From NCBI RefSeq assembly GCF_004348335.1, contig NZ_SMJW01000005.1, forward strand, positions 1 to 64,000: a stretch of 64,000 nt of DNA, given 5' to 3'. This DNA comes from Actinomadura bangladeshensis (GTDB lineage Bacteria; Actinomycetota; Actinomycetes; Streptosporangiales; Streptosporangiaceae). This document shows, one piece after another, positions 1 through 63,341 of this stretch. Each line of letters opens with the position of its first letter. Position 1 is the stretch's first letter. The translations under genes and the position numbers were made by a program. The notes below the pieces were generated by a model. That model made no database searches. It worked only from the letters and a program-made list of their open reading frames with translations, and was not told the DNA's origin.

Positions 1-2
1 GG

Positions 3-1858: not shown

Positions 1859-2979
1859 GAGCGCTGACCCCTCTCCAGGCGGTGGCCGCCGGGGTGGCGG
1901 CCGCCCGGCTGGCGCGCGGCCGGAGCCGTCCCGCGCCCTTCGTGCCCGGCCGCTCCGGCCCGCCGCCGCAGCGGGTCTCCGCGGTGATCCCGGCGCGGGA
2001 CGAGGAGTCGCGCATCGAGGGCTGCGTGCGCCCCTTGCTCGCGGACCCCGACGTGTCCGAGGTGGTCGTCGTGGACGACGAGTCGCGGGACGGCACCGCC
2101 CGGCTCGCGGCGCGGCTGGGCGCCAGGGTCGTCCCCGGGGCACCGCTGCCGGACGGCTGGGTCGGCAAGCAGTGGGCGCTGCACCAGGGCGTGCGCGCCG
2201 CCGCGGGGCCGATCGTGGTGCTGCTGGACGCCGACACGCGCCCCAAGCCGGGGCTGTGCGCGGAGCTCGCCGCGCTGCTCGACACGTTCGACCTGGTGTC
2301 GGCCGGGCCGCGGTTCGTCTGCGGCGGTGTGGCCGAGCAGGCGTTGCACGCCTCGTTCCTGGCCGGTCTCGTCTACCGTTTCGGTCCGATCGGCCCGGCC
2401 GCCGCGTCCCCGGGCAGGCTCCTGCTCAACGGCCAGTGCATGGCCTTCCGCAAGGACCCGATGGTGCGGGCCGGCGGGTTCGCGAGGGTCCGCGGCCACC
2501 TCACCGACGATGTCGCCCTCGGCCGGCTGCTCGCGGGGGACGGCTGGCGGATCGCCTTCCGGGACGCCGGCGCACTGCTGGACGTCGACATGCACGAGTC
2601 GGCGGCCGATGTGTGGCGCGAGTGGGGGCGGTCGATCGCGCTGCGGGACGTGACCGGGAACGCGGGGCTGGCCGCCGATCTCGCGGTCGTCTGGCTGACC
2701 TTCGCCCTGCCGATGCTGCGGCTGGCGGCGGGCCGCCCGACGCCCCTGGACCTCGGCCTGCTCGTCCAGCGGCTGCTCCTGGCAGCGGCCCTGCGCGGCA
2801 GTTACGCACGTCCGGGCATGGGCCTGGCGATCTCGCCGTTGCTCGACGTCCCGATGGCCGTGCGCCTGACGTGGTCGGTGCTGCGCCCGGCGCGCACCTG
2901 GCGGGGACGGACCTACGGCCGGACGGCGGTCAGGCGCGGCGCTCCGCCACGGCGGCCTGACCGAAGCGCAGCCCGATGA
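1855..2979 (+). CDS. Family 2 glycosyltransferase, probable carotenoid glycosyltransferase
   Basis: GT-A fold glycosyltransferase of 374 residues. The nucleotide-sugar region is visible: SAVIPARDEESRI, VVVDDESRDGT, then the DAD metal-binding triad in VVLLDADTRP. A later acidic motif, HLTDDVALG, is placed as in HpnB/CruG-like enzymes. A hydrophobic stretch near residues 275-300 suggests membrane attachment. The ATG overlaps the stop of the desaturase (ATGA), so translation is probably coupled. In cyanobacterial and actinobacterial carotenoid loci a GT2 enzyme next to CruF puts a sugar on the hydroxyl made by CruF; this role is inferred. The last 50 bp overlap tail-to-tail with the acyltransferase gene on the other strand. 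Confidence 0.8.
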   Translation: MRALTPLQAVAAGVAAARLARGRSRPAPFVPGRSGPPPQRVSAVIPARDEESRIEGCVRPLLADPDVSEVVVVDDESRDGTARLAARLGARVVPGAPLPDGWVGKQWALHQGVRAAAGPIVVLLDADTRPKPGLCAELAALLDTFDLVSAGPRFVCGGVAEQALHASFLAGLVYRFGPIGPAAASPGRLLLNGQCMAFRKDPMVRAGGFARVRGHLTDDVALGRLLAGDGWRIAFRDAGALLDVDMHESAADVWREWGRSIALRDVTGNAGLAADLAVVWLTFALPMLRLAAGRPTPLDLGLLVQRLLLAAALRGSYARPGMGLAISPLLDVPMAVRLTWSVLRPARTWRGRTYGRTAVRRGAPPRRPDRSAAR

Positions 2980-3541
2980 GGCACATCAGCGCCCCGGTCG
3001 CCGCGACGTGCTCGGCGGGCGCGAAGAGCAGTTGCAGCGCCGGCAGGGAGAAGACCGCCGCGCGCGTGCCCCGGGCGAACGAACCCGAGGCCAGGCTCAC
3101 CCCGGTCAGCAGCGCGGTGCCGAGCGCGAAGGCCGGTGGGCAGATCACCGCGAAACCCCCGGCGAACGTGAGGATCGAGCGGCCGCCGCGCCGTCCCGCG
3201 AACGCCGGCCAGGCGTGCCCGGCCATCGCGCCGCCGACCGCCGCGTACACCGGCAGGACGCTCGCGCCGGCGACCGTCCCGAGCGCGCCGGTCCGGCGGC
3301 CGCCGGCGGCCAGCCCGGCCAGGCCCGCGGCGGTCCCCTTGAGCATGTCGCCGGCGAACACCGGGAGGGCCGCCTTCCAGCCGAGCTGCTCCATCATGTT
3401 CCAGAAGCCGGGGTTGCGGTCGCCGACGTCGCGCGGGTCGAAGCCGTGGGCGCGTCCGACGAGCACCGCGACCGGCACCGAGCCGAGCAGGTAGCCGCCG
3501 ATGGCCGAGCCGAGCACGGGAGCCGCCGATACCAGGGTCAT
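2930..3541 (-). CDS. PlsY-family membrane acyltransferase, divergent
   Basis: Small multi-pass membrane protein of 203 residues, the usual PlsY length. PlsY transfers an acyl group from acyl-phosphate to glycerol-3-phosphate. The first motif is recognisable (GGYLLGSVPVAVLVGR), but the second is altered: where canonical PlsY has GSGNxGxTN, this one has GDRNPGFWN. The third, normally HxxPxxxxFxGGKxVAT, reads GHAWPAFAGRRGGRS, with the Lys replaced by Arg. The substrate pocket is therefore probably different. A PlsX homologue lies 1.3 kb away inside the same carotenoid locus. I infer that the pair acylates a carotenoid glycoside rather than making phospholipid. ATG 3541 is used; an in-frame ATG at 3559 is possible. 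Both overlap the 5' end of the divergent CrtA-like gene. Confidence 0.75.
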   Translation of the reverse strand: MTLVSAAPVLGSAIGGYLLGSVPVAVLVGRAHGFDPRDVGDRNPGFWNMMEQLGWKAALPVFAGDMLKGTAAGLAGLAAGGRRTGALGTVAGASVLPVYAAVGGAMAGHAWPAFAGRRGGRSILTFAGGFAVICPPAFALGTALLTGVSLASGSFARGTRAAVFSLPALQLLFAPAEHVAATGALMCLIGLRFGQAAVAERRA

Positions 3542-4235
3542 CGCCTCGTTCCACCTCATCAGGTACGCGGGTGTGGACGCCATGCGGCACATGGCGTTCG
3601 ACCGGCCGCTGCTGCGCCGCACCGGCGGGCTGTCGTTCTGGCGGCTGCTGGGCACGGGCCGCGGCCGGTCCATGAGCCTGGGCGCCGATCTGCGCCGCTG
3701 GGCGCTGTTCGCCGTGTGGGACGGGGAGCCCGCGCTGGAGGAGTTCCTCGCGCGCTCGCCGGTGGCCGGGCGGTGGCGCGAGGAGGCCGAAGAGGCGTGG
3801 CATGTCCGGCTCGCGCCATTGGCTTCCCGCGGCCGCTGGGGCGGGCGCGACCCGTTCGCCGCCGCCGCACCGGCAGGGAGGGCCGGCGGCGGACCGGTGG
3901 CCGTGCTGACCAGGGCGTCGATCCGTCCCAGCCGGTTGGTGGCCTTCTACCGGTCGGTGCCGGGAGTGGACCGGGAACTGCGCCGCCAGGACGGCTGCCT
4001 GGCCTCGATCGGCGCGGGGGAGTGGCCGCTGGCCCGGCAGGCGACCTTCTCGCTGTGGCGGGACGAGAGCGCGATCGCGCGGTTCGCCTACCGGGCGGAC
4101 GCGCACCGCACCGTCATCGACCGCGTGCGCGGCGAGGACTGGTACGCCGAGGAGCTGTTCGCCCGCTTCGCTCCCTTTGCGAGCCGGGGCACCTGGGACG
4201 GGCGCGACCCGCTGCAAGCCCGCGGCACTGAGTGA
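3501..4235 (+). CDS. crtA: Spheroidene monooxygenase-like protein (CrtA family)
   Basis: Protein of 244 residues related to spheroidene monooxygenase, which adds a 2-keto group to acyclic carotenoids. Features typical of the family are the N-terminal strand VIASFHLIRY, the block LSFWRLLGTGRGRSMSLGAD followed by LRRWALFAVW, and a second half repeating the pattern (AVLTRASIRPSR, QATFSLWRDE). The ATG at 3501 is chosen because the later ATG at 3582 would cut off the conserved first strand. With this start the gene overlaps the start of the divergent PlsY-like gene by about 40-60 bp, which is unusual. It ends 5 bp from the convergent plsX-like gene. A keto end group would fit a hydroxylated, glycosylated carotenoid. 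Confidence 0.75.
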   Translation: MAEPSTGAADTRVIASFHLIRYAGVDAMRHMAFDRPLLRRTGGLSFWRLLGTGRGRSMSLGADLRRWALFAVWDGEPALEEFLARSPVAGRWREEAEEAWHVRLAPLASRGRWGGRDPFAAAAPAGRAGGGPVAVLTRASIRPSRLVAFYRSVPGVDRELRRQDGCLASIGAGEWPLARQATFSLWRDESAIARFAYRADAHRTVIDRVRGEDWYAEELFARFAPFASRGTWDGRDPLQARGTE

Positions 4236-4240
4236 GCACC

Positions 4241-5230
4241 TCACGCGACCGGCCCCACAGAGGCGCGGCCGACCGCCGGCACGGGCTCGTCGTCTGCGCC
4301 CAGTTCGGACGCGACCACGCACGCGCGGGCGATGGCCGCGGATCGTGAGGAGCCGTGCCCCACGACGACCGTGCCGGTCAGCCCCAGCAGGGCGGCGCCC
4401 CCGTGCGTGTCCGCCGTGTAGAGCCGCGCGACCTCCGCCAGCCGCCCAGGCGGGGCGATGCCGGCTTCGGCGACCATGTCCAGGGTCGTCCGGACGCAGC
4501 CCTCGATGTTCTTCAGCACCACGTTGCCGGTGAAACCGTCCGTCACGACCACGTCGACCGTTCCGGCCAGCACATCGTGCCCCTCCACATTGCCGTGGAA
4601 GCGGACGGGCATCCCCGGCAGCAGGCCCGCGGCCTCGCGGACGAGCCGGTTGCCCTTCCCGGGCTCGGCGCCGATGGACAGCAGGCCCACCGACGGGTCG
4701 GCCACGCCCAGCACGGCCCGCGCGTAGGAGGCGCCCAGCAGGGCGAACTGCGCGAGCATCTCCGCGGTGGGGTCGGCGGTCCCGCCGGCGTCGACCAGCA
4801 CGGTGGAGCCGGTCAGCGTCGGCAGCGCCACCGCCAGCGCCGGGCGCAGCACGCCCTCCCGCCGCCCGAAGGCGCGGACGGCGCAGGTCACGACCGCGCC
4901 GGTGGACCCGGCCGAGACCAGCGGCGCACGCCGCCGCCGGGCGAGGGCGCACCCGACCATGAGGCTCGAGTCCCGCCGCGCTGCGGCTCCCGAGCCGCGC
5001 TCGGCCATCGGCACCACGTCGTCGGCGTGCAGGACGTCGACTTCACCGGCGCCGCCGTGCCGCCGCAGTTCCCGGCGCACGTCGTCGGCCCGTCCGACGA
5101 GCAGGACCTCGATGCCGTGGTCGCGGTGCGCCGCCAGCGCTCCCGGCACCGTCTCCGCCGGCCCGTGGTCGCCGCCCATCGCGTCCAGCACCACCGGACG
5201 CCCCGCCCCGCCCTGGGCGCGGCCGCCCAT
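4241..5230 (-). CDS. plsX: PlsX-family phosphate acyltransferase
   Basis: Soluble enzyme of 329 residues that converts acyl-ACP and phosphate to acyl-phosphate. Signatures: VVLDAMGGDHGP at the N-terminus, SAGSTGAVVTCA in the middle, then GNVEGHD and VVTDGFTGNVVLKN, and the C-terminal GGAALLGLTGTVVVGHGSS. All canonical blocks are present. The start codon shares a base with the stop of crtB (TGATG), so it is translationally coupled to carotenoid synthesis genes rather than to fabD/fabF as in housekeeping loci. The region before the first Gly-rich block is shorter in charge pattern than usual but the core is intact. Partner: the PlsY-like protein at 2930-3541. Confidence 0.88.
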   Translation of the reverse strand: MGGRAQGGAGRPVVLDAMGGDHGPAETVPGALAAHRDHGIEVLLVGRADDVRRELRRHGGAGEVDVLHADDVVPMAERGSGAAARRDSSLMVGCALARRRRAPLVSAGSTGAVVTCAVRAFGRREGVLRPALAVALPTLTGSTVLVDAGGTADPTAEMLAQFALLGASYARAVLGVADPSVGLLSIGAEPGKGNRLVREAAGLLPGMPVRFHGNVEGHDVLAGTVDVVVTDGFTGNVVLKNIEGCVRTTLDMVAEAGIAPPGRLAEVARLYTADTHGGAALLGLTGTVVVGHGSSRSAAIARACVVASELGADDEPVPAVGRASVGPVA

Positions 5231-6141
5231 CACCGCACCCCGGCGGGCCGCCGCCGTTCGGCGCGGCCGGCGGCGGAGGCGGCCAGCAGGTGCCGCGCGA
5301 AGATCGCGGCCCGGCGGTGGCGCGGCACCCGCGCCCGCGCGGTCAGCACGTCGTGGCCGGCCGCGGCGATCTCGTCCAGGATGCCGCCGTACAGTTCGTG
5401 CGCGGCCCGGATGCAGGGACGCGACGACGGGGTCAGCAGTTCCACGCCGTCGAGGGCGCGGCGGTAGTGCTCCCGGGCGCGGCCGGCCTCGAAGGCCACC
5501 AGCTCGCGCAGCGCCCGCCCGCGCCCGCCGCCGTGCAGGTCGTCCTCGGTGACCCCGAACTTGGCGAGGTCCTCCTGCGGCAGGTAGACGCGGCCCCGGG
5601 CCAGGTCCTCGGCGACGTCCCGCAGGAAGTTCGTGAGCTGGAACGCCCGTCCCAGTTCGCGTGCGGGCTCGCGGGCCCGCCGCTCGGCGCCGGGCACCGT
5701 CTCCAGGACGGGCAGCATCATCAGCCCGATCGCGGCGGCCGAGCCCTCCATGTACACGAGCAGGTCGTCGTAGGTGGCGTACCGGGTGACGGTGAGGTCG
5801 GTGCGCATGGACCGCAGGAAGGCGTCGAGGTCGCCGCGTTCGATGCCGAAGGAGCGGACGGTGTGCACGAACGCGGGCAGCACGGGGTCGTCCACCACCT
5901 CGCCCGCCAGGCCCGCGGTGAGCCGCCGGGCCGCCTCGTCGAGCGCGCCGGCCCGGTCGCCGGGGTCCGCGGCCGTTTCGCCGCACGCGTCGACGATGTC
6001 GTCCACGTGGCGGGTGAACCCGTACAGCGCGTGCACATGCCTGCGCTTCCACGCCGGCAGCAGCAGGGTGGCCAGGTAGAACGAGCGTCCGTGGCGGGCG
6101 TTGAGGCGCCGGCAGTGTTCATAGCTCGCGGTCAGCGTCAT
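5230..6141 (-). CDS. crtB: Phytoene synthase
   Basis: Head-to-head prenyl synthase of 303 residues condensing two geranylgeranyl diphosphates to phytoene. Both Asp-rich motifs are visible: HVDDIVDA (first, around residues 45-52) and LTNFLRDVAEDLARGR with DVAED (second, around 170-185). YMEGSAAAIG and RVYLPQEDL are also conserved. Start ATG 6141 overlaps the stop of crtI as ATGA and its stop touches the plsX start, so crtI-crtB-plsX form a tight operon on the minus strand. No GGPP synthase gene is in the window; the substrate must come from elsewhere. Confidence 0.95.
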   Translation of the reverse strand: MTLTASYEHCRRLNARHGRSFYLATLLLPAWKRRHVHALYGFTRHVDDIVDACGETAADPGDRAGALDEAARRLTAGLAGEVVDDPVLPAFVHTVRSFGIERGDLDAFLRSMRTDLTVTRYATYDDLLVYMEGSAAAIGLMMLPVLETVPGAERRAREPARELGRAFQLTNFLRDVAEDLARGRVYLPQEDLAKFGVTEDDLHGGGRGRALRELVAFEAGRAREHYRRALDGVELLTPSSRPCIRAAHELYGGILDEIAAAGHDVLTARARVPRHRRAAIFARHLLAASAAGRAERRRPAGVR

Positions 6142-7607
6142 CGGCGGCCTTCCAGGATGCGGGCGGCGGCGAGCCGTCCGGAGATCAGAGCCGGTGGGAC
6201 GCCCACACCGGGCGCGGTGTACATCCCCGCGAAGTGCAGGCCGGGGACGCGGCGGCTGCGGCCGGCGGGCCGGAACCAGGCCGTCTGGGCGAACCGGTGG
6301 TCCAGCGCGAACGGCGTGCCCGCCGAATGGCCCAGGCGGGCCCAGACCCGCGGATCGAAGGTCCGCCGCGGCGCCGCCGACAGGTCGCCGTACCCGAGGT
6401 CGGACAGGCGGCCGAGCAGGCGCTGCTCCAGCCGCGGCCCGAGGCGGTCCCAGTCGGCTCCGCTCACCGTGTTCGGGGCGGGTTCCAGGACGCTCAGCGT
6501 GCAGTGGCCGGGCGGCGCCGCGGTGCCGTCCCCCTCGGGGCAGGTGACCAGCAGACTCGGATCGGGCTGCGGACGTCCGGCGGCCAGGGCCGCGAAGGCG
6601 CCGGCCCACTCCCGGCCGAAGTGCAGCGTGTGGTGGGCCCGGCCGGGCGGGCGGCGGTCCGTCCCGAAGTGCATGACCAGGCAGGACGGCGAGTACCGCG
6701 GACGGCGCAGCCGCCAGTCGCCCGCCGCGCCGGGCAGCAGCCCCCGATGGGCCTCCGCGAGGTCGCAGGCGACCACGACCGCCCCGGCGGCGAGGCGCTC
6801 GCCGCCGTCCAGCCGCACCGCCGCCACCCCGCAGGAGTCCGCCTCGACCCGCTCGGCGCGCATCCCGTACCGGATCGCGGCGCCCGCCTTCTCGGCCGCG
6901 GCGGCCAGCGCCCGCGGAATCGCGTGCATACCGCCCGCCGCCGGGAAGTACACCCCGCCGACGGTGTCCATGTGCGCGACGGCCGCGTAGATCGCCAGCG
7001 CCTTGGCGGGCGGGAGCCCGACGTACAGCGCTTGGAACGTGTGCGCCCTGATGAGCCGCTCGTCGGTCAGCTGACCCGCCACGAACCGGTCCAGGCGCCG
7101 GAACCCGCCCGCCGCCGCCAGCCTGAGCAGCGCGACCGGACGGGCCATGCTCCGCAGCCGGGTCATGTCCGCGTCGATGAACGACGACCACTCAGCCTCG
7201 AACATCGCGCCGAGCCGGCGCCGGAACCGCAGGTACCGGGCCGCCTCCTCCGGCCCGCACAGGGCGCGGACGTTCTCGGCCATCCGCCGCGCGCCCGCCA
7301 CCACGTCCAGTTGCGACCCGTCGTGGAAGGACAGCCGGTAGAACGGGTCCAGGCGCCGGAGCGGCAGCAGGTCCTCCATGTCCTCGCCCGCCGCGCCGAA
7401 CGTGTCCGCCAGCACCTGCGGCATGGTCAGCACCGAAGGGCCCGTGTCGAACCGGTAGGCCCCGGCGTACGCCGACCCGCAGCAGCCGCCCGGTTCGTCA
7501 CGGGCCTCGACCACCACGACCTCGCGGCCCCCCGCCGCGAGATGGATCGCCGCCGACAGCCCGGACAGGCCCGCCCCGATCACGACGACCGGACCGCCCG
7601 CCGCCAT
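6138..7607 (-). CDS. crtI: Phytoene desaturase
   Basis: FAD-dependent desaturase, 489 residues, typical CrtI length. N-terminal Rossmann motif VVVIGAGLSGLSAAIHL with EARDEPGG, then FDTGPSVLTMP, and the C-terminal FAD motif LHFAGMYTAPGVGVPPALIS. First gene of the minus-strand operon crtI-crtB-plsX. Expected product is lycopene or a related acyclic polyene, because no lycopene cyclase gene is present in the window. The 150 bp upstream contain repeated TGCAC-bearing stretches (for example around 7629-7655 and 7720-7727) but I cannot assign a firm promoter. Confidence 0.92.
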   Translation of the reverse strand: MAAGGPVVVIGAGLSGLSAAIHLAAGGREVVVVEARDEPGGCCGSAYAGAYRFDTGPSVLTMPQVLADTFGAAGEDMEDLLPLRRLDPFYRLSFHDGSQLDVVAGARRMAENVRALCGPEEAARYLRFRRRLGAMFEAEWSSFIDADMTRLRSMARPVALLRLAAAGGFRRLDRFVAGQLTDERLIRAHTFQALYVGLPPAKALAIYAAVAHMDTVGGVYFPAAGGMHAIPRALAAAAEKAGAAIRYGMRAERVEADSCGVAAVRLDGGERLAAGAVVVACDLAEAHRGLLPGAAGDWRLRRPRYSPSCLVMHFGTDRRPPGRAHHTLHFGREWAGAFAALAAGRPQPDPSLLVTCPEGDGTAAPPGHCTLSVLEPAPNTVSGADWDRLGPRLEQRLLGRLSDLGYGDLSAAPRRTFDPRVWARLGHSAGTPFALDHRFAQTAWFRPAGRSRRVPGLHFAGMYTAPGVGVPPALISGRLAAARILEGRR

Positions 7608-7758
7608 CAGCGCCCGCCGTGCGGACCGTGCACACGATGTCGGGAGTGCACTGTTCCTCCATCATCGTCCGAAAGGTTCTGCACCGTTCTTCGGAGCCGG
7701 GCGGCCGATCGGTTGCGCGGTGCACGGAGGCGTGACCGGGCTGGAGCTTCGCCGCGGT

Positions 7759-8055
7759 TTACCGCATGGCGGCGGATTGTGACGCGGAGACCCTTTCATC
7801 CACCGAGGTCTGCCGCCCGGAAGCCTCGAGGACGGCCTGGTCTCGCGTTTCCTCCATTCGGAGGGCGATGCCCATGGCGAAGAAGGTCGGGGCCCATTCG
7901 CCGACGAAGATGCCCCACCGGTCGGCGCGCTCCAGGCCCGCGTCCTCGAGTTGCCTGGACGCCACCCAGGACGCGAACGACAGGCCGACCGAGATGATGC
8001 CCGCCGTGTACATGAAATTGGACCGGATGCCCATCTTGTGCAGTGAGTTGATCAT
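7759..8055 (-). CDS. Small two-helix membrane protein, unknown function
   Basis: Protein of 98 residues with two predicted membrane segments (around residues 14-32 and 48-64) and a polar C-terminal tail. I do not recognise a named family. A strong ribosome binding site (AGGAGGGA) sits 5-6 bp before the ATG. Upstream on the same strand is CTTGTG followed 12 bp later by GGGTAC, resembling an alternative (SigB/SigF-type) promoter, and it overlaps the repeated element described at 8100-8128. Position between crtI and the ECF sigma gene suggests the light/stress carotenoid regulon. Confidence 0.7.
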   Translation of the reverse strand: MINSLHKMGIRSNFMYTAGIISVGLSFASWVASRQLEDAGLERADRWGIFVGEWAPTFFAMGIALRMEETRDQAVLEASGRQTSVDERVSASQSAAMR

Positions 8056-53469: not shown

Positions 53470-53940
53470 TCAGGCGTGCGTCCGGTGGGAACCGGGAGGA
53501 CGCCGGCGAACGGCCGCGTTCGCCTCGGTGATGTGCAGGCGGTTGTGCAGCCCGGCGATGTTCATGATGCGCAGCACCCGGGACTGCGGGTGGTGCAGGC
53601 GCAGCTGGCGGCCGTGGCCGGCCATGACCTGGTGCGCCCACACCAGGACGGCCAGGCCGCTGGAGTCGGCGAAGCTCAGCTCGGAGAGGTCGAGCAGCAG
53701 CCGGTGCGGGTCGTGCCGGTCGATCACCGCGCCGATGTGGCGGCGCAGGTCCTCGGAGGCGGCCACGTCGAGTTCACCGCGCAGGCGCAGCTCGGCCGTG
53801 GAGTCGTGCGGGCGGACGTCGACCGCCACCAGCAACGCGCCCCCGGCGCAGGAGACGGTGCCGGGGGCGGCCGTGGCCGATGGCGTCGGTCCGCCGGGCG
53901 GCGATGCCGAGGTGAACAAGTGATCGTTTGCCGGGGTCAC
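53470..53940 (-). CDS. STAS-domain anti-sigma factor antagonist
   Basis: Protein of 156 residues; STAS domain at about 45-145 with TAELRLRGELDVAASEDLR and the phosphorylatable Ser in ELSFADSSGLAVLVWA. The N-terminal 40 residues are disordered (Pro/Ser/Thr-rich). Such proteins release a sigma factor by binding its anti-sigma kinase, and are switched off by Ser phosphorylation. No RsbW-type kinase is in the window. Part of the signalling island. Confidence 0.88.
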   Translation of the reverse strand: MTPANDHLFTSASPPGGPTPSATAAPGTVSCAGGALLVAVDVRPHDSTAELRLRGELDVAASEDLRRHIGAVIDRHDPHRLLLDLSELSFADSSGLAVLVWAHQVMAGHGRQLRLHHPQSRVLRIMNIAGLHNRLHITEANAAVRRRPPGSHRTHA

Positions 53941-54072: not shown

Positions 54073-54768
54073 TTAGGTGTCACCGCCGAGGATCTCTGCT
54101 GCCAGTTCGGCGACACGGCGGCGGCTGTCGCGCGCCTGTTTGCGCAGCCGGTTGAACGCCGCCACGGCGTCCACGCCGTGGGTGGCCATGAGGTAGCCGA
54201 TGGCGCGCTCGATGACGACGCGGTAGTCGAGCGCGTACTGCAGCTGGGCGGCGGTGACGCTGTGCTCCTCGGACGACAGCGCGGCCGCCATCAGCTCACC
54301 GACGAGGCCGGCGTAGGCGCGCAGCGCCGACATGTCGGAGTCGTCCCACCCGTAGGGCTGGGACCGGTAGACGTTCAGGGTGCCGACCGGGCTGCCGCCC
54401 AGCAGGATCGGCACTCCCGCCACCGCCCGCACCCGTGCGTCCAGGACCTCCGGGAGGTGCGGCCAGCGGGCGTCCGAGCGCACGTCCTTGGTGTGAACGG
54501 GGTGGCCCAGGACGTACGTGTCGTAACACGGCCCCTCTTCGGCCTGGGCTTGGGCCTCCTCCAGGGAGCGGCCCGCCTCGTCGGAGGCCGCGATCGAGAG
54601 CAGCTGCTCCTTCTGGTCGATGAGCATAATGCCGGCCCCGTCGTAGCCGAACAGCCGGTTCACCGAGCTGACCACGTGCTGCAGGGCCCGCGCGACGTCG
54701 GTCTCGTGCGGGGTCTCGCGCAGCCGCTCAAGGCTGGCGCCCAACGCTTCGACGTCGATATGCATCAT
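54073..54768 (-). CDS. GAF-ANTAR regulator
   Basis: Protein of 231 residues: GAF domain at about 15-155 (FGYDGAGIMLIDQKEQLLSI, then AVAGVPILLGGSPVGTLNVY) and C-terminal ANTAR RNA-binding domain (about 165-225: LQYALDYRVVIERAIGYLMATHG, with AFNRLRKQARDSRRRVAELA). ANTAR proteins act as antiterminators at paired hairpins. ATG 54768 is preferred; an in-frame ATG at 54777 would place the ribosome binding site too near. Confidence 0.88.
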   Translation of the reverse strand: MMHIDVEALGASLERLRETPHETDVARALQHVVSSVNRLFGYDGAGIMLIDQKEQLLSIAASDEAGRSLEEAQAQAEEGPCYDTYVLGHPVHTKDVRSDARWPHLPEVLDARVRAVAGVPILLGGSPVGTLNVYRSQPYGWDDSDMSALRAYAGLVGELMAAALSSEEHSVTAAQLQYALDYRVVIERAIGYLMATHGVDAVAAFNRLRKQARDSRRRVAELAAEILGGDT

Positions 54769-54817
54769 GATCCACATCCTTGGACGGCGGGCCCGGGGTC
54801 ACTGGGGTACGGACGCA

Positions 54818-55408
54818 CTACGGCAGACCGTGATCGTGCGCTCGCGGGTGCGCCGCGAGCCTGACGACCAGGTCGGCGGCCGTGCCGGCCAGGTGCTCGC
54901 CGAGCGCGATCTGCTCGTCCGTCCATGTGCCGGGCGTGCGCCGGTAGAAGTCCAGCGCACCGATGACGGTGCCGTCGAGCCTGACGGGAACCGACAGCAC
55001 GGCGCGCACCGGTGCCGCCCGGCGGGCCAGCTGCGCGTATGCCGGGCCGGCCCCGTCCGCGAGATCGTTCACCGCCACGGGCTGATCGGCGGCCACGGAC
55101 TCCCGGGCGGGGCCGGCCCGTTCGAACTCCTGGGCGTATTCCAGCTCCAGTCCTTCGGCGGTGGACCCGCCTACGGCATGCAGCCCGTTCGCCTCGTTGG
55201 CCAGCATCAAGGCCGCACCGTCCGCCGCCGAGAGCGCCGCCATCGAGCGCAGCGCGCGAGACAGCTTTCCGGCGGCCGAGGCCAGCCGCCGACGTGTCTC
55301 GGTGGGGAGGTGGTCGGACGCGGGGCCGGCCGGAAGGCCCGGCACCCGGCCGTCTCCGGGCTCGCCGCCGTCAATCGCCACAATGGTCCTCTCGCAGATC
55401 CTTTGCAT
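54818..55408 (-). CDS. GAF-domain protein
   Basis: Protein of 196 residues, GAF domain at about 45-185 (ADGAALMLANEANGLHAVGG, then RAVLSVPVRLDGTVIGALDFY). The N-terminal helix resembles that of the neighbouring GAF-ANTAR protein, but no ANTAR or other output domain follows, so it must act through a partner. Between the GAF-ANTAR gene (50 bp) and a STAS gene (54 bp), same strand. Confidence 0.8.
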   Translation of the reverse strand: MQRICERTIVAIDGGEPGDGRVPGLPAGPASDHLPTETRRRLASAAGKLSRALRSMAALSAADGAALMLANEANGLHAVGGSTAEGLELEYAQEFERAGPARESVAADQPVAVNDLADGAGPAYAQLARRAAPVRAVLSVPVRLDGTVIGALDFYRRTPGTWTDEQIALGEHLAGTAADLVVRLAAHPRAHDHGLP

Positions 55409-55462: not shown

Positions 55463-55918
55463 TCAAGAGACGCGCCGGCGCGCCGTGAGGCCCGTCCCCG
55501 CGGCTCGCGGATCAGCGTGGTCGGCGGAGAGTCTCGCGAAGGCGTGCCGGAGGGTGACGCTGATCGCGATGTGCTCGTCGAGACCGGTCCGCTGCAGGAT
55601 CCGGTGGCAGAGCGGGCTCGGACGGCTGACCACCAGCCGGCGGTCGCGCGCCGTCGCGGCCTTCCAGATGCCGACCAGCGCCCCGAGTCCGGAGGAGTCG
55701 CAGAAGGTCACGTCCTGCAAATCCACGATGATGCGCCGAGAACTGCCGCAATGGGAGATCACACGGTCGCGGAACGCGTGCGCCGTCAGATGGTCGATTT
55801 CGCCGCCTACCTTGATGAGAAGGCATGAGTCGCGGTGCTCGACCTGGAGCCGAATACGGCCGTAATGGTCGTGCCACGTTTCCTCAAGAGCCGTATTTTC
55901 GTCTCGTACCACGTCCAT
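55463..55918 (-). CDS. STAS-domain anti-sigma factor antagonist
   Basis: Protein of 151 residues. STAS domain at about 25-125: CLLIKVGGEIDHLTAHAFRD, then the Ser in DVTFCDSSGLGALVGIW. First gene of the minus-strand set STAS, GAF, GAF-ANTAR, STAS. A SigB-like promoter (GATT, 15 bp, GGGTAG) is visible upstream, and GGGAGG lies 12 bp before the ATG. Confidence 0.88.
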   Translation of the reverse strand: MDVVRDENTALEETWHDHYGRIRLQVEHRDSCLLIKVGGEIDHLTAHAFRDRVISHCGSSRRIIVDLQDVTFCDSSGLGALVGIWKAATARDRRLVVSRPSPLCHRILQRTGLDEHIAISVTLRHAFARLSADHADPRAAGTGLTARRRVS

Positions 55919-55973: not shown

Positions 55974-56119
55974 ATGTGCGACGTCGGCACGCCGCTGGCC
56001 TGGCCGAACCGGTGATCGAGAGCGGTGAACCCGCGAGATCGCGGCGGGAGGGCGGGCACGCGAGCAGGACCGGATGCTTCCTTGCCTTCCGGCAAGTGTC
56101 TTTCTGTGGTTAAGGTGGG

Positions 56120-57871
56120 GTGAGAGGACTAGGTCCTCGTTTGGCGGCTTTGCTCAGGAAGGGACGTGGTCCGCCGCAGCCTCTGCCAGTGATGGAAATC
56201 ACCCAAAGTACTGATGGTCCGCAGGACGTTCTCGACCCGGCGCTGGGCCCCGCCCCCTATCCGGTGCTCGCCGTGGACGCGGCCGGATCGGTGACACGAC
56301 TCAACGGCGCGGCCCGCTCACTGCTCGGCATGATCCCCGGTGGGATGTTGCACGACCGGGCGCCGGGATGGCTGGCAGCGGCGCACCACGCGCTGGCCGC
56401 CGCTCCCGTTCCCGTCCGCGCGGAGTCCGCCCCCTCCCTGCCGGAGCCGATCGCGCAAGGCTCGATCGGCGACCGGTTCTTCGCGGCCCATGCGGTGCCC
56501 GACGGAGACCCCGCCGGGACGGTCTGGTGGCTGTTGGACGTCACCGAGAACCGGCGCCTCGAACGGGAGCTGGCCGCCGAACGCGAGCGGACGTCGTTCC
56601 TGGACGACGCGTCCAGCCAGTTGCTCGCGTCGCTGAATCTGGAACGGTGCATGGAGGTGACCGTGCGGCTGGCCGCGCGGCATCTCGCAGACGCCGCATT
56701 GGTGATCGCTCCCGGATCCGGACGGTCCCACCCCGTCTCCTACTGCGGCCCGGACGGCGAGGTGCAGCACCAGGAGCTTCTCGTGGACCCGGCGGACGTG
56801 CCGGGGCTCGCGGAGGCGATGCAGGGCTTCCCGCCGGTGCCGTCACGCTGGATCGATCCCGCCGCCGCACCCTCCTGGGTCGCCCGGGAGGACCTGGGGG
56901 AGCTCACCGCCATGGTGGTGACCGCGCTCCCCGGGCACGGCGTCCCGGCCGGGGCCCTGGTGCTGCTCCGGCGGGGCGGAGGGTGCGCGTTCTCCGATGG
57001 AGAGGAGACGGTGGCGCGCCTGTTCGCGGCGCGAGCCGGCGCGGCCATGTCGGCCGCCTGCGTGTACGCCGAGCAGGCGTCCATCACCGACACGCTCATG
57101 CGCGAGCTGCTGCCGCCGCGCACCACCCGGCTGCCCGAGGCGGAACTGGCGGCCCGATACCGGCCCTCGGGCGACGGTGAGCTGGTCGGGGGCGACTTCT
57201 ACGATCTGCATCCGGCGGCCGACGATCCCGGTGCGGCGCCGGAGTCGCTGGTGGTTCTCGGGGACGTGTGCGGCAAGGGGCTGGAGGCCGCGGTCCTCAC
57301 CGGCAAGATCCGGAACACGCTGCGCGCTCTGGTCCCGCTGGCCGGAGATCACCAGCGTGTTCTGGAACTGCTGAACGGGACGCTGCTGAACAGCGACTCC
57401 ACTCGGTTCGTCACCCTCGTACTGGCCTCGCTCCACCAGGAGGGCGGGCGCGTGCGGCTGCGGCTGACCAGCGCCGGCCATGGCGCTCCGCTGATCGTGC
57501 GCGCCGGCGGCGAGGTCGAGTCGGCCGACACGCGCGGCTCGCTGATCGGGGTGCTGGAGGAGATCACGTCCACGACCGCGACGGTGCTGCTGGAGCCGGG
57601 CGACACCTGCCTGCTGTACACCGACGGCATCACCGAGGCGGTCGGCGGCCCGCTGGGCGAGGAGATGTTCGGCGACGAGCGCCTGCGCGCCGAACTGCGA
57701 GGCTGCGGCGGAATGCCCCCGGAAGCGCTGGTCGAGCGGGTGCACATGCTCGCCGCCGAGTGGGTGGGCGCCGGCGCGCACGACGACATGGCCGTGATCG
57801 CCATCACCGCGCCGCGGCGCTACCACCTCAGCGCGGTCGGGGGCCAAGGGCCGGGAAGGTTCACCGCGTGA
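56120..57871 (+). CDS. SpoIIE/PP2C-type serine phosphatase with PAS and GAF domains
   Basis: Protein of 583 residues. PAS-like domain at about 40-150 (YPVLAVDAAGSVTRLNGAAR, WWLLDVTENRRLERELAAER), short coiled coil, GAF domain at about 160-325 and the phosphatase domain at about 345-570, with metal-binding motifs VGGDFYDLH, VLGDVCGKGLEAA and GAHDDMAVIAI. Such RsbU/RsbP-like enzymes dephosphorylate STAS antagonists to free a sigma factor. The stop overlaps the cobalamin-sensor start (GTGA). GTG 56120 is used; ATG 56192 would remove 24 residues without loss of a domain. Confidence 0.9.
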   Translation: MRGLGPRLAALLRKGRGPPQPLPVMEITQSTDGPQDVLDPALGPAPYPVLAVDAAGSVTRLNGAARSLLGMIPGGMLHDRAPGWLAAAHHALAAAPVPVRAESAPSLPEPIAQGSIGDRFFAAHAVPDGDPAGTVWWLLDVTENRRLERELAAERERTSFLDDASSQLLASLNLERCMEVTVRLAARHLADAALVIAPGSGRSHPVSYCGPDGEVQHQELLVDPADVPGLAEAMQGFPPVPSRWIDPAAAPSWVAREDLGELTAMVVTALPGHGVPAGALVLLRRGGGCAFSDGEETVARLFAARAGAAMSAACVYAEQASITDTLMRELLPPRTTRLPEAELAARYRPSGDGELVGGDFYDLHPAADDPGAAPESLVVLGDVCGKGLEAAVLTGKIRNTLRALVPLAGDHQRVLELLNGTLLNSDSTRFVTLVLASLHQEGGRVRLRLTSAGHGAPLIVRAGGEVESADTRGSLIGVLEEITSTTATVLLEPGDTCLLYTDGITEAVGGPLGEEMFGDERLRAELRGCGGMPPEALVERVHMLAAEWVGAGAHDDMAVIAITAPRRYHLSAVGGQGPGRFTA

Positions 57872-58947
57872 CCCACACGGCAGAACAGCCGCCCGCCGGG
57901 CTCGACGAGCGGACGAGGGTGCTCTGGGACGCGACCGTCGGCGGCGACGAGTACGCCGCCGCCGACGCGGCGACGGCCGCCCTGGACGAGGGAACCGACC
58001 CGGAGGCCCTGCTGCTGGACGTCATCGCGCCGCTGCAGGCCCGGGTGGGACGCGAGTGGGCGGCGAACCGGCTCACCGTCGTCCAGGAGCACACCGCCAC
58101 CGCGATCAACGAACGGGTGATCGGGACGCTGGCGCACCATCCGGCCGTCCGCGGGGCCGTGGAACGCCATCGCGCGGCACCCCGCGGACGGGTGGCGGTG
58201 GCGTGCATCGACGGCGAGTGGCACGGGCTGCCCGCCCGGATCCTCGCCGAGGTGCTGCGGCTGCGCGGCTGGCGGGTCGACTACCTCGGCGCCCAGGTGC
58301 CGACGCCGCACCTGATCTCGCACGTGCACCGCACGAACCCGGCGGTGGTGGCGCTGTCGTCCTCGATCGCCACCCGCCTCCCGGCCGCGCACGCCGCCAT
58401 CACCGCCTGCCAGGCGACCGGGACCCCGGTCATGGTCGGCGGCACCGCGTACGGGCCGGGCGGCCGGTACGCCGCTCTGCTCGGCGCGGACGCCTGGGCC
58501 CCCGACGCCCGCGCCGCCGCCGCCCGGCTGGCCGAGGGGCCGCTCCCCATGCCGCCGCCCGTCCACCAGGCCGTCGACGACCTTCCGCACCTCGCCGACC
58601 AGGAGTACGCGCACATCACGCGGACGGCGCCGGGGCTGGTGCGCCACGTGCTGGCCGGACTTCAGTCCCGCTTCCCGGCGATGGCGGACTACACCGACCG
58701 GCAGCGGCGCCACACCGCCGAGGACATCGCCCACATCGTCGACTTCCTCGGTGCCGCCCTCTACGTGGACGACCCGGAGCTGTTCACCGGCTTCACCGGC
58801 TGGCTCGCGGGCATCCTGACCGCACGGAACGTACCCGCTCACAGCCTGCTGCCCGCCCTGGACCTGCTGGCGGAGCAACTCGCCGACTATCCCCGCGCCA
58901 CGGATCTGCTGTCCCGCGCGCGGGACGCCGTAGAAGGGACCGCATGA
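57868..58947 (+). CDS. Cobalamin-binding sensor protein with CarH-like photoreceptor motif
   Basis: Protein of 359 residues. Helix bundle at about 15-90 carries Trp64, then nine residues, Glu74-His75 (W-x9-EH). The Rossmann B12 domain (about 105-235) has Glu117-Trp-His119, matching the ExH lower-ligand motif of CarH/LitR. All residues known to hold and photolyse adenosylcobalamin are thus present. There is no DNA-binding domain. The C-terminal part (about 260-355: ADYTDRQRRHTAEDIAHIVD, then FTGFTGWLAGILTARNV) is an all-helical globin/RsbR-N-like domain. Sandwiched by overlapping frames between a SpoIIE phosphatase (GTGA) and a STAS gene (ATGA). I infer light or B12 input to a partner-switching cascade. 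Confidence 0.85.
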   Translation: MTHTAEQPPAGLDERTRVLWDATVGGDEYAAADAATAALDEGTDPEALLLDVIAPLQARVGREWAANRLTVVQEHTATAINERVIGTLAHHPAVRGAVERHRAAPRGRVAVACIDGEWHGLPARILAEVLRLRGWRVDYLGAQVPTPHLISHVHRTNPAVVALSSSIATRLPAAHAAITACQATGTPVMVGGTAYGPGGRYAALLGADAWAPDARAAAARLAEGPLPMPPPVHQAVDDLPHLADQEYAHITRTAPGLVRHVLAGLQSRFPAMADYTDRQRRHTAEDIAHIVDFLGAALYVDDPELFTGFTGWLAGILTARNVPAHSLLPALDLLAEQLADYPRATDLLSRARDAVEGTA

Positions 58948-59327
58948 CGGCCTTTGTTCCCGATGTTCCGCTGCGCGTCGTCGCCACCGAGGCCGGCGCG
59001 CGGTCGCTGCGGATCGAGATTGAGGGCGTGCTGGACTTCCGCACCGCCGACACGCTGGTGACCGCCGTGTGCGCGCAGGTGGAGGCCCGGCCGGGGATCG
59101 GTGACCTGGAACTGGTCTGCACCGGGATGGGCCTGTGCGATTCGGCCGGCCTGTCCGCCCTGCTCATGATCCGGCGCCGCACGGCCGCGGCCGGTGCCCG
59201 CCTCCGCCTGACGGACCGGAGCCCGCAGCTCGATCGGCTCCTGGACCTGACGGGGACGACGCACCATCTGACCGGCGAGGCGGCGGCGGTGCGCGAAGGC
59301 CACGACCGGGAGCTTCCGCAGCAGTGA
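58944..59327 (+). CDS. STAS-domain protein
   Basis: Protein of 127 residues; a single STAS domain (RSLRIEIEGVLDFRTADTLV, then LVCTGMGLCDSAGLSALLMI with Ser in the switch position). Third gene of the phosphatase, cobalamin sensor, STAS operon, coupled by ATGA. Probable direct target of the phosphatase and output of the sensor. Confidence 0.88.
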   Translation: MTAFVPDVPLRVVATEAGARSLRIEIEGVLDFRTADTLVTAVCAQVEARPGIGDLELVCTGMGLCDSAGLSALLMIRRRTAAAGARLRLTDRSPQLDRLLDLTGTTHHLTGEAAAVREGHDRELPQQ

Positions 59328-59362: not shown

Positions 59363-60937
59363 TCATCTCCCCGCCCGTTGCCGGATACCCGTTCCGGAGG
59401 CGGGGCGCGCGCTCGTCCGATCCGTCCGGTCGGCCCCGGCGGCGCGGGTGATGCCCCGGCACATGCCTCCGAAGACGCGGTCGTGGAAGGGCCGGAACGC
59501 CCACCAGTAGGCATGGCCGGCCAGCCCGCGCGGATGGAAGAGCGCCCGCTGCTCCAGGAGGCTGCGGCCGTCCTCCTCGCTCACCCTCAGTTCGAGCCAG
59601 GCCAGGCCGGGCAGCCGCATTTCGGCCCGCAACCGCAGCAGCCGGCCCGGTTCGATCTCCTCGACGCGCCAGAAGTCCACCGCTTCCCCGATGCGCAGCC
59701 GGCGCGGGTCCCGGCGTCCGCGCCGCAGCCCGACGCCCCCCACGAGCCGGTCGAGGATGCCGCGCGCCCGCCAGGCGATCGGGAAGGAGTACCAGCCGCG
59801 CTCCCCGCCGATCCCTTCGACGACGTCCCACAGCCGCTCGGCTGGAGCGTCCGCCCGGCACGACCGCTCGTCGGTGTAGAGACTGCCGCCGGCCCAGTCC
59901 GGGTCCGTCGGCAGCGGGTCGCTCGGGGCGCCGGGGGTGCTGGCCGACGACCAGCGCGTGGCGACCTCCGCATCGCGGACCCGGCGCAGTGCGAGCTCGA
60001 CCGAGCGGTCGAAGCCGGTCGGCCCGTCCGGCGGTGCCGGGACGTACCGGCTGATGTCGTTCTCGGTGCACACGACCTCGTTGCGCAACGACTCCACCAG
60101 CGGGCGCGCGAGGCCGCTGGGAACCGGGGTGATGGCTCCCACCCACAGGCTCGACAGGGACGGGCTCAGCAGCGGGACCGGGATGATGATGCGCCGGTTG
60201 AGCCCGGCCACGGCGGCGTACCGGCGCATCATGCCGACGTAGGTGAGCACGTCCGGCCCGCCGATGTCGAAGCCGCGGCTCACCTCGGCGGGCAGGTCCG
60301 CGGACGCCACCAGGTAGTGCAGGACGTCCCGGATCGCGATCGGCTGGATCCGCGTGCGCACCCACCGCGGCGTGACCATCACCGGGAGCCGCTCGGTGAG
60401 GTAGCGGAGCATCTCGAACGACGCCGAACCCGAGCCGATGATCACCGCGGCGCGCAGCCATACCGCCGGTACCCCGCTGTCGAGCATGATCTTGCCGACC
60501 TCGGCGCGGGACTGCAGATGCGGTGACAGCTTCTCTTCGGGGTCCATGCCGCCGAGGTAGACCAGCCGCCCCACCCCCGCGTCCCGCGCCGCATCGGCGA
60601 ACGTGCGGGCCGCGCGGCGGTCGTTCTCGGCGAAGCCGCCCGCGCCGCCGATCGCATGGATCAGGTAGTAGGCGACGTCGATGCCGTCCAGCGCGCGCCG
60701 GGTCGCCTCCGGGTCGGTGGCGTCGGCCTCCACGATCTCCACCCGTCCGGCCCAGGGATGATCGCGCAGCCGCCGCGCCGAACGGGCCATGCACCGCACC
60801 CGGTGGCCGGCGTCCAGCAGTTCGGGGACCAGCCGCCCGCCGATGTAGCCGCTGGCTCCCGTGACCAGGCACGACTTCTGGCCGTCCGCGGCCTGCGCGC
60901 GTCCCGGCACGGCCGGCGCGTCACCGCCGTTGGTCAT
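59363..60937 (-). CDS. NAD(P)-binding SDR with C-terminal DUF2867 domain
   Basis: Protein of 524 residues. N-terminal extended SDR/NmrA-like domain (SCLVTGASGYIGGRLVPELL, about 20-320) and C-terminal DUF2867, a START-like domain (about 345-500: RLWDVVEGIGGERGWYSFPI, then GLAGHAYWWAFRPFHDRVF). Such fusions are recurrent neighbours of LitR/photolyase/TspO genes in light- or singlet-oxygen-induced sets. GGGGGGA lies a few bases before the ATG, and a SigB-like promoter (CTTGTG, 13 bp, GGGTAG) lies upstream. Confidence 0.85.
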   Translation of the reverse strand: MTNGGDAPAVPGRAQAADGQKSCLVTGASGYIGGRLVPELLDAGHRVRCMARSARRLRDHPWAGRVEIVEADATDPEATRRALDGIDVAYYLIHAIGGAGGFAENDRRAARTFADAARDAGVGRLVYLGGMDPEEKLSPHLQSRAEVGKIMLDSGVPAVWLRAAVIIGSGSASFEMLRYLTERLPVMVTPRWVRTRIQPIAIRDVLHYLVASADLPAEVSRGFDIGGPDVLTYVGMMRRYAAVAGLNRRIIIPVPLLSPSLSSLWVGAITPVPSGLARPLVESLRNEVVCTENDISRYVPAPPDGPTGFDRSVELALRRVRDAEVATRWSSASTPGAPSDPLPTDPDWAGGSLYTDERSCRADAPAERLWDVVEGIGGERGWYSFPIAWRARGILDRLVGGVGLRRGRRDPRRLRIGEAVDFWRVEEIEPGRLLRLRAEMRLPGLAWLELRVSEEDGRSLLEQRALFHPRGLAGHAYWWAFRPFHDRVFGGMCRGITRAAGADRTDRTSARPASGTGIRQRAGR

Positions 60938-61758: not shown

Positions 61759-62277
61759 TCACCGGCCGGTCCGTGCATGCGACCGGTTGCGGTAGGCGAT
61801 GTCGCCGTTCAGCGCGGTGGCGAACCCGCACCACACCGCGTACGGGACCAGTACGCGGGCCGCCGTGGTGTCGATGCGGGCGGTGCGGCGAATCAGGTCG
61901 GCATTGCTCACGTCCAGGAGGAGTGTTCCGGCCACCCCGGCCGCCGGGTTGCGCCGGCCGAAGAACATCTGGTTCCACGCGACGTTCAAGGCCATGTTCA
62001 CTCCCAGGGCGGCGGCCAGCGACCGGCGGCCGCGGCGCTCGGCGCGGAGCAGGGCGTGGCCGCTCGCCCAGGCGACCGATGCGTACAGCGGCGTCCAGAC
62101 CACTCCGAACGCCCAGGCGGGCGGTTGCCACGGCGGCTTGGCCAGCGATCGGTACCAGCCGGTGTTCGGATCGACCGCTCGCGATCCGGCGACCGCCGCG
62201 GCCGTCACGGCCGCCGTGGTCGCCGCGTACGTTCCCCATCGGGCGGCCGCTGCTCCGCGGTCCTTGACCGGCCTCAT
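61759..62277 (-). CDS. TspO/MBR-family membrane protein
   Basis: Protein of 172 residues with five helices. Signature WYRSLAKPPWQPPAWAFGVVW, then LNVAWNQMFFGRRN and AARVLVPYAVWCGFATALNG. TspO proteins bind porphyrins and related tetrapyrroles and are linked to light and oxidative stress, including carotenoid gene control in phototrophs. ATG 62277; divergent from the MerR-B12 gene with a 116-bp shared regulatory region. Confidence 0.92.
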   Translation of the reverse strand: MRPVKDRGAAAARWGTYAATTAAVTAAAVAGSRAVDPNTGWYRSLAKPPWQPPAWAFGVVWTPLYASVAWASGHALLRAERRGRRSLAAALGVNMALNVAWNQMFFGRRNPAAGVAGTLLLDVSNADLIRRTARIDTTAARVLVPYAVWCGFATALNGDIAYRNRSHARTGR

Positions 62278-62365
62278 GGCCGGGTCCCTTCCCGTTCGGG
62301 CGGCGTCCGCACATGGGAGGCGGGAAGGGCAACCGGAGCGGACGGTTCCGGCGAAGTCAGGGTGA

Positions 62366-62382
62366 GTCGTACGCTGTACGGT
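62366..62382. promoter_or_regulatory. Candidate operator/promoter between tspO and the MerR-B12 gene
   Basis: GTCGTACGCTGTACGGT holds two GTACG units 2 bp apart, the first palindromic (CGTACG). It lies in the divergent intergenic region 12 bp before the ATG at 62394 and could be the autoregulatory site. Pattern-based only. Confidence 0.3.
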
Positions 62383-62393
62383 CGAGCTCGGTG

Positions 62394-63341
62394 ATGGACG
62401 GGAGGCACGTGGGCGGGACAGCGGACCGGGAGGCCGGGCTGAGCGTGGGCGCGGTGGCGCAGCGCCTCGGCGTGGCCGCCTCCACCCTGCGCACGTGGGA
62501 CCGCAGGTACGGCATCGGCCCGACCCGCCGCAGCACGGGCGCGCACCGGCGCTACACCCTGGCCGACGTTGTGCGGCTGGAGGACATGCAGCGGCTGATC
62601 CTGGCCGGTGCCCCGCCGGGCGAGGCGGCGCGGGCCGTGCTGGACGCGCCGCCCGGTGAACCGCCGCCGCCGCGCGGGCACGGCGCGGGCGGCAACCGCG
62701 TGGCCGTCGGCGCGCCGACCCGGGGGCCGGACGGTGCCGAGGTGCGGGGCCTGGCCCGTGCGGCCATGGCCCTGGACGCCCCCGCCGTGAGCGACACCGT
62801 GCGGACGGCGCTGGCCCGGGACGGGGTGATCCGGACATGGAACGGGTTGATCGTTCCCGTCCTGGAGGGAATCGGCCGCAGGCACGCGGCCACCGGCGAC
62901 TGCGTGGACGTCGAGCACCTGCTGTCCGGCATCCTGCTCGGCCGGCTGGCCGAGGTGCCGCCGCCCGTTCGGCCCCGCAGCCCTCGTCCCGTCCTGCTGG
63001 CCTGCGCGCCGGAGGAACAGCACAGCCTGCCGGTGCACGTGCTGGCGGCCGCGCTGGCCGAAGCGGACGTCGCGACGATCTCACTGGGGGCGCGGGTCCC
63101 GGCGCCCGCCCTCGCCGCCGCCGTCCGGCGCACCGGGCCCAACGCGGTCTTCGTCTGGTCGCAGACCGCCGAGACCGGTGACCCGTCCTGGCTCGGCGCG
63201 CTCCCCGGGTCCCGGCCGCCGTACCGCCTGATCGTCGGCGGACCGGGCTGGCGACGCGACCGGCTGCCCGCCTCGGCCAAGCCGGTGTCGACGCTGGAGG
63301 AGGCCGTCACCGAGCTGGCGTCGGCCCATGAACGGTTCTGA
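62394..63341 (+). CDS. MerR-family regulator with cobalamin-binding domain (LitR/CarH type)
   Basis: Protein of 315 residues. MerR helix-turn-helix at about 15-80 (SVGAVAQRLGVAASTLRTWD, then RRYTLADVVRLEDMQRLILA), B12-type helix bundle (about 120-185) and Rossmann domain (about 195-310). The lower ligand motif is kept: Glu208-Gln-His210. In the upper motif W-x9-EH the Trp is replaced: His164, nine residues, Glu174-His175. The protein probably binds B12, but its photochemistry may differ from CarH. ATG 62394 is used; GTG 62409 with a nearby GGGAGG is the alternative. GTACG repeats upstream (62370-62380) may be its operator. Confidence 0.85.
   Translation: MDGRHVGGTADREAGLSVGAVAQRLGVAASTLRTWDRRYGIGPTRRSTGAHRRYTLADVVRLEDMQRLILAGAPPGEAARAVLDAPPGEPPPPRGHGAGGNRVAVGAPTRGPDGAEVRGLARAAMALDAPAVSDTVRTALARDGVIRTWNGLIVPVLEGIGRRHAATGDCVDVEHLLSGILLGRLAEVPPPVRPRSPRPVLLACAPEEQHSLPVHVLAAALAEADVATISLGARVPAPALAAAVRRTGPNAVFVWSQTAETGDPSWLGALPGSRPPYRLIVGGPGWRRDRLPASAKPVSTLEEAVTELASAHERF

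Follow-up and report, generated by a model that had tools for sequence, protein, structure and literature searches.

The window analysed here is a stretch of 64,000 nucleotides from Actinomadura bangladeshensis (contig NZ_SMJW01000005.1, positions 1 to 64,000), whose assembly (GCF_004348335.1) totals 8,695,781 bases, is split into 609 contigs and is 96.28% complete. We focused on a three-gene operon at 56120..59327, encoding a PP2C serine phosphatase, a vitamin B12-binding protein and a STAS protein. An earlier reading of the DNA letters alone, hereafter the original prediction, had taken the B12 protein for a CarH-like photosensor with a new output. Sequence and predicted fold place this protein among the standalone photocobilins, and the pair that it forms with the phosphatase is the conserved unit, the STAS gene being optional. 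We propose, with a probability of roughly 60%, that the photocobilin places its dedicated upstream phosphatase under the control of light and B12, and that the phosphatase feeds a STAS partner switch.

Gene organisation of the operon

The first gene (56120..57871, + strand) encodes a SpoIIE/RsbU-type PP2C serine phosphatase (Pfam SpoIIE, 8.6e-42) with predicted PAS-like and GAF-like N-terminal domains. It is followed on the same strand by the photocobilin gene (57868..58947), whose product carries B12-binding photosensor domains at residues ~19-225 and then a predicted bilin-binding-type globin, or photoglobin, domain at residues ~240-359 (58585..58944, + strand). The third gene (58944..59327, + strand) encodes a single-domain STAS protein of the RsbV-like anti-anti-sigma type (Pfam STAS_2, 1e-11), with Ser67 in the motif DSAGL. 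The frames of the phosphatase and the photocobilin overlap at GTGA (57868) and those of the photocobilin and the STAS protein at ATGA (58944), so that the arrangement of three overlapping genes is as first described. Gene starts were assigned by a simple script, and the phosphatase may start at ATG 56192, which close relatives favour over GTG 56120.

A terminator-like hairpin lies at 56081-56096 (+), immediately 5' of the phosphatase gene; chance alone would give 0.7 such hairpins over the region that was scanned. No sigma-70 type promoter was found around the operon in a scan that is uninformative for actinobacterial alternative sigma factors.

Assignment of the B12 protein to the standalone photocobilins

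A phmmer search against the PDB aligned residues 19-355 of the B12 protein with SasPcob (8J2W/8J2X; E 7e-76), to which it is 45-46% identical. The next sequence match was AbDPcob (8J2Y, E 9e-33), and CarH chains were much weaker (2e-5 to 3e-4). When the predicted model of the protein (mean predicted local distance difference test score, pLDDT, 89.4) was compared with known structures, SasPcob was matched over 334 residues (Z 40.0, root mean square deviation 2.1) and AbDPcob over 324 residues (Z 35.4), whereas CarH covered the B12 part only (Z ~19-20 over ~190-200 residues). The C-terminal tail is all helical in the model, in line with the original prediction, which had also considered a globin fold for it. 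Taken alone (residues 240-359), it matched smURFP, which binds biliverdin, as well as chains of the phycobilisome/allophycocyanin type (Z 15.8-15.5 over 118-120 residues), and on this predicted fold it is a globin of the bilin-binding type. Photoglobins group in one clade with phycobiliproteins and the globins that bind bilins (PMC10151467).

Residue conservation was evaluated in relatives obtained by a scan of GTDB genomes, which gave at least 536 confirmed relatives. The best 80 were kept, hence a bias towards close relatives; they include Actinomadura, Nonomuraea, Streptomyces, Saccharothrix, Amycolatopsis, Pseudonocardia, Kutzneria, Nocardioides, Mycobacterium and other genera. The CarH hallmarks W64, E74, H75, E117 and H119, whose positions had been given correctly, were unchanged in all 80. 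In SasPcob the equivalents of W64, E74 and H75 line the adenosyl pocket, and H137, D270 and W296 contact biliverdin (PMC10979010). The residues that phmmer aligns with these three contacts, H148, D286 and W312, were likewise kept in 80/80 relatives. The light-response signatures of SignatureFinder, GxxW, EH, GxxH and GxxxP (PMC11796333), appear in the photocobilin as GREW, EH, GEWH and GAQVP. Pfam detected B12-binding and B12-binding_2 only, in agreement with the earlier statement that the protein has no DNA-binding domain.

Because of the match to SasPcob in sequence and predicted fold, the signatures and the bilin contacts, we assign the B12 protein to the standalone photocobilins, a family described in 2024 for which structures have been solved. 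A bilin is probably its second chromophore, beside vitamin B12. The residue after the conserved Trp is Ala65, and Ala is found there in 79/80 relatives, whereas CarH has Trp-His. This His, the light-state ligand of CarH, is His132, a number that agrees with the H132A structure entries. Since Ala65 stands in place of the CarH His, the sequence makes a CarH-type bis-His light state of the photocobilin unlikely. SasPcob forms no bis-His light state either (PMC10979010).

Conservation of the phosphatase-photocobilin pair

A phosphatase gene lay directly upstream of the photocobilin gene, on the same strand, in 80/80 best-matching loci. Gene-call clustering gave 79/80, the difference being locus L067, where the phosphatase frame continues across the photocobilin gene, which the gene caller missed. 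Downstream of the photocobilin, a STAS gene (a match at most 600 bases 3' on the same strand) was present in 63/80 loci; two of the 17 others (L047, L076) have STAS matches elsewhere in the flank. The gene contents around the unit varied widely among the 80 loci. A quick tree was built from the 80 relatives and the window protein, with 30/77 inner branches below 80 support. Along it, the presence of STAS changed at least 8 times while the phosphatase stayed constant.

Less biased samples of 150 genomes of the family and 396 of the phylum were also searched, the window's own genome being counted among the positives in both. The photocobilin occurred in 38/150 family genomes, with an upstream phosphatase in 34, a downstream STAS gene in 18 and the full trio in 18 of the 38; tandem copies in two genomes (G139, G065) were counted once each. 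The genomes without a linked phosphatase are two assemblies of 960 and 420 contigs (G029 and G014), one with a GGDEF fusion (G032) and one with a short match (G142). In the phylum sample 28/396 genomes had a match, and the 27 other than the window's gave 31 loci. The phosphatase was upstream in 11/11 loci of the same class as against 0/20 loci of other classes, six of which match the B12 part only, so that not all need be photocobilins, and one of which (L147) has little upstream sequence. By these counts the pair appears to be class-specific.

As the pair was kept in 34/38 family genomes and the trio in 18/38, what is conserved is the unit of phosphatase and photocobilin, with STAS as an optional member. 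A survey for the trio of phosphatase, B12 protein and STAS had been suggested together with the original prediction; its counts go partly against that reading, and the trio was rejected as the conserved unit in favour of the pair.

Some loci depart from the common arrangement. Tandem photocobilin genes lie between phosphatase and STAS in two family genomes (L132:6932-9149 and L133:6932-9149), with all checked pocket residues kept; a heterodimer is possible there. A photocobilin gene beside a phosphatase at L137:6998-8005 (-) has the equivalents of Trp64, His119, Asp286 and Trp312 replaced and EH kept; misalignment is possible, and the protein is perhaps light-blind, judging by these residues. 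One family genome carries a GGDEF-photocobilin fusion (L140). Five Streptomyces loci (L066, L067, L083, L087, L091) have an O6-methylguanine DNA methyltransferase group after the operon and then a desaturase-like flavin adenine dinucleotide oxidoreductase group, one member of each being checked with Pfam. In four of the five this is followed by a lycopene cyclase group (checked in L066), and in L091 the check was made on a phytoene synthase. A MarR-type group, named from its representative, is present in 16/80 loci and directly follows STAS in 10 of them, for example at L081:9524-9997 (+).

The phosphatase

The phosphatase had been described as a PAS-GAF-SpoIIE protein. The SpoIIE part stood, while neither sensor domain was significant in Pfam (PAS_4 at E 0.048 and no match to GAF). 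In the predicted model (mean pLDDT 84.4) two alpha/beta domains, at ~46-140 and 174-290, precede the PP2C domain, and each is followed by a long helix (142-169 and 293-330). A family profile of the phosphatase matched DevS GAF chains in the PDB (7.5e-6), and from the model the two domains may be read as PAS and GAF. Residues 329-567 of the model, the sole part used in the fold comparison, matched 220 residues of Rv1364c, in its RsbU domain, at Z 26.9. The PP2C catalytic residues D359, D382, D502, D555 and D556 were kept in 79-80 of 80 sequences (79 loci).

The motif G[FY][PL]P[VLMI]P.RW was present in the GAF-like part of 71/81 photocobilin-linked phosphatases, that of the window included, as against 0/12 other phosphatases of the genome and 0/14 other phosphatases near the loci. 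Only 4/16 distant linked loci have it; it looks clade-specific and was not adopted as a docking site.

The STAS protein and the type of switch

Of the 62 downstream STAS proteins that fall into a single sequence cluster, 61 have Ser at the position of Ser67. An RsbW-like HATPase group gene (one member checked with Pfam) occurred in the flanks of 30/80 loci, at various positions and on either strand, a count that includes close relatives of each other and has no background rate behind it. These genes fit partner switching.

The original prediction had also postulated a stressosome-like release of the sigma factor. This part found no support and was set aside: the annotated neighbours encode small single-domain STAS, GAF and GAF-ANTAR proteins, and no RsbR-, RsbS- or RsbT-like gene is among them, the rest of the genome not having been searched for such genes. 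An RsbU/RsbV-type partner switch is likelier. The central idea of the prediction, a B12 light-sensing domain linked to a phosphatase/STAS switch with an output that is likely at the protein level, was retained.

Neighbouring genes

The divergent STAS, GAF and GAF-ANTAR genes and the MerR-B12 gene named in the original prediction were all found with Pfam. Divergent from the operon is a STAS gene (55463..55918, -; Pfam STAS 3.3e-22), a putative further member of the switch. It is accompanied by genes for a GAF protein (54818..55408, -; GAF_2 6.4e-15) and a GAF-ANTAR protein (54073..54777, -; ANTAR 5.4e-18, GAF_2 9e-18) and by a second STAS gene (53470..53940, -; STAS 7.9e-18).

On its other side the operon adjoins an SDR-DUF2867 gene (59363-60937, -; Pfam); a similar gene group, labelled by eye, lies near the operon in L049, L053, L055 and L082. 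The MerR-B12 regulator (62313-63341, +) has His at the conserved Trp of CarH and Ala at the next His of CarH, with EH and ExH kept. It adjoins TspO and a 2-thiouracil desulfurase/DUF1722 gene (61762-62232 (-) and L127:495-1496 are listed with it). Phytoene synthase-like and phytoene desaturase-like frames, labelled by eye from their translations, lie at ~1-8000 of the window, ~50 kb from the operon.

Proposed mechanism

In the dark, the photocobilin would bind adenosylcobalamin, plus a bilin if available, and form a dimer. Illumination with green light, or with red light acting via the bilin, would break the Co-C bond and rearrange the protein. The photocobilin would bind the GAF-like/helical-linker region of the phosphatase and shift its dimer state. 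The photochemistry, the dimer-to-monomer change and the trans-regulation of a diguanylate cyclase come from published relatives, not from this protein, and the models for such an action are RsbT on RsbU and photocobilins on GGDEF enzymes. A 2025 study argues that RsbT imposes order on a helical linker of RsbU, through which the phosphatase domains dimerise and become active, and proposes that PPM phosphatases and GGDEF enzymes share an exchangeable coiled-coil linker control (PMC12143880). We propose an effect on the linker and dimer state because of this shared control and because the phosphatase model contains two long connecting helices, 142-169 and 293-330. The phosphatase would then dephosphorylate a STAS protein, probably the local one where present and another elsewhere, and the dephosphorylated STAS protein would draw an RsbW-type kinase away from a sigma factor. 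From the genomic links and from analogy we infer that light controls the phosphatase directly, and the same holds for the photocobilin-phosphatase contact, for the sign of the response to light and for the STAS target, the kinase and the sigma factor.

By analogy, the pair resembles a photocobilin-GGDEF fusion split into two genes. A wider reading, to which we give somewhat less than an even chance, is that the standalone photocobilins of actinomycetes would be dedicated trans-acting light switches of PP2C phosphatases, RsbT-like in action, with exchangeable STAS targets, and a two-gene counterpart of the photocobilin-GGDEF fusion.

Several observations weigh against the proposed control of the phosphatase by the photocobilin. 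The links are all genomic, and a conserved neighbourhood indicates shared function, not contact. Neither 17/80 of the selected loci nor 16/34 of the family genomes with the pair have a downstream STAS gene, and the 0/20 loci of other classes with a phosphatase mean that other partners exist. RsbW-type kinases (PF13581) gave 90 matches in the genome and none on the window's contig. Which sign the response to light has is unpredictable, since in published assays that of SasPcob differs with and without biliverdin: without bilin it is reversed, the dark form activating and light inhibiting (PMC10979010).

The supply of bilin is a further difficulty, as no PF01126 heme oxygenase was found in the window's genome although the bilin pocket is intact. 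This family is missing in 8/29 photocobilin genomes of the genus, the window's included, three of which are single-contig assemblies (G550, G564, G591). The window's genome contains no PHY domain and has two matches to DUF2470, a domain linked to HugZ-type heme oxygenases. Biliverdin would then be made by another enzyme or taken up from outside, unless the protein uses a different bilin. PF01126 was present in 21/29 photocobilin genomes of the genus vs 18/36 others (Fisher P 0.08) and in 25/38 of the family vs 50/112 others (Fisher P 0.04), kinship being ignored in both comparisons and the counts being taken by hand from genome lists. As a sign of bilin use this co-occurrence was dropped, being weak and uncorrected for relatedness.

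Alternative explanations

The protein might be mainly a sensor of cobalamin status, or of redox or tetrapyrrole status, for the same phosphatase, its light sensitivity being incidental. The lack of PF01126 in this genome and in others of the genus speaks for such a role, as does the fact that the apo and adenosylcobalamin forms of AbDPcob already differ in activity (PMC10979010). Nevertheless, the adenosyl-pocket residues W64, E74 and H75 and the three bilin contacts are unchanged in 80/80 selected relatives, and carotenoid-type genes stand beside 5/80 loci, so that we consider a sensor of this kind unlikely.

Alternatively, the photocobilin could act not on the phosphatase but on the STAS protein, which it might sequester or whose serine it might shield; the directly downstream STAS gene with its overlapping frame and the presence of such a gene in 63/80 selected loci speak for this. 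Loci that have none downstream could still be served by a STAS gene from another part of the genome. Since the STAS state changed at least 8 times while the phosphatase stayed, the phosphatase is the likelier direct partner, and an action on STAS, missing downstream at the 17 loci and in the 16 family genomes that keep the phosphatase, appears quite unlikely. That the photocobilin and phosphatase genes are co-transcribed merely for convenience, their products exchanging no direct signal, would agree with the purely genomic nature of their links, but it is highly improbable in view of the same order and strand in 80/80 selected loci and of the 34/38 family genomes, across several genera and with differing flanks. 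Light and B12 control of the phosphatase through the photocobilin is therefore the explanation that we prefer.

Significance and relation to published work

The original prediction had presented the operon as an unrecognised output of the CarH class. This view was given up: the protein belongs to a known family, and its connection with phosphatases and STAS proteins is not new, having been published in 2024 as a prediction. SasPcob of Saccharothrix was then suggested, from gene neighbourhood and STRING, to interact potentially with STAS, SpoIIE and PP2C-type phosphatases (PMC10979010); we found no published test of this in the open-licence literature. The same work reports crystal structures and the photochemistry of B12 and biliverdin, describes how a diguanylate cyclase is activated both in cis and in trans, and calls the role of standalone photocobilins less clear (PMC10979010). 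New here are the anatomy of the unit, the overlapping operon fixed by sequence, and STAS as its variable member.

The near-invariant pairing with one phosphatase offers a single, directly testable partner for standalone photocobilins. If the proposal is true, green and red light and coenzyme B12 status enter serine-phosphatase signalling in actinobacteria, many of which are antibiotic producers, and the pair might provide a light-controlled phosphatase for optogenetics.

Comparison with known systems

The closest known protein is SasPcob of Saccharothrix syringae (8J2W, 8J2X; PMC10979010), which shares the domain order, the fold and the B12 and bilin contacts. Like the protein described here, it has no DNA-binding or enzyme domain, and STAS and SpoIIE proteins were proposed as its partners. 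Its photochemistry has been measured, whereas the present protein is known from sequence and model. AbDPcob (8J2Y) has the same photocobilin module but fused to its output enzyme, a GGDEF protein, the phosphatase here being encoded by a separate gene. AbPcob differs in having His at the bilin Asp position (PMC10979010), where the Asp is kept in the window's protein. CarH and LitR share the W-x9-EH and E-x-H residues and the B12 fold; the photocobilin, unlike them, is without a MerR DNA-binding domain and without His after the Trp, and has the additional, predicted globin of the bilin-binding type. The RsbU/RsbV systems, as in B. subtilis RsbU and RsbP and in Rv1364c, resemble the operon, in which the PP2C domain likewise follows helical linkers and domains that are predicted to be sensor-like, and a small STAS protein bears the D-S-x-G serine. 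They differ from it in that the proposed sensor is here a separate photocobilin, and in that no PF13581 match lies on the contig.

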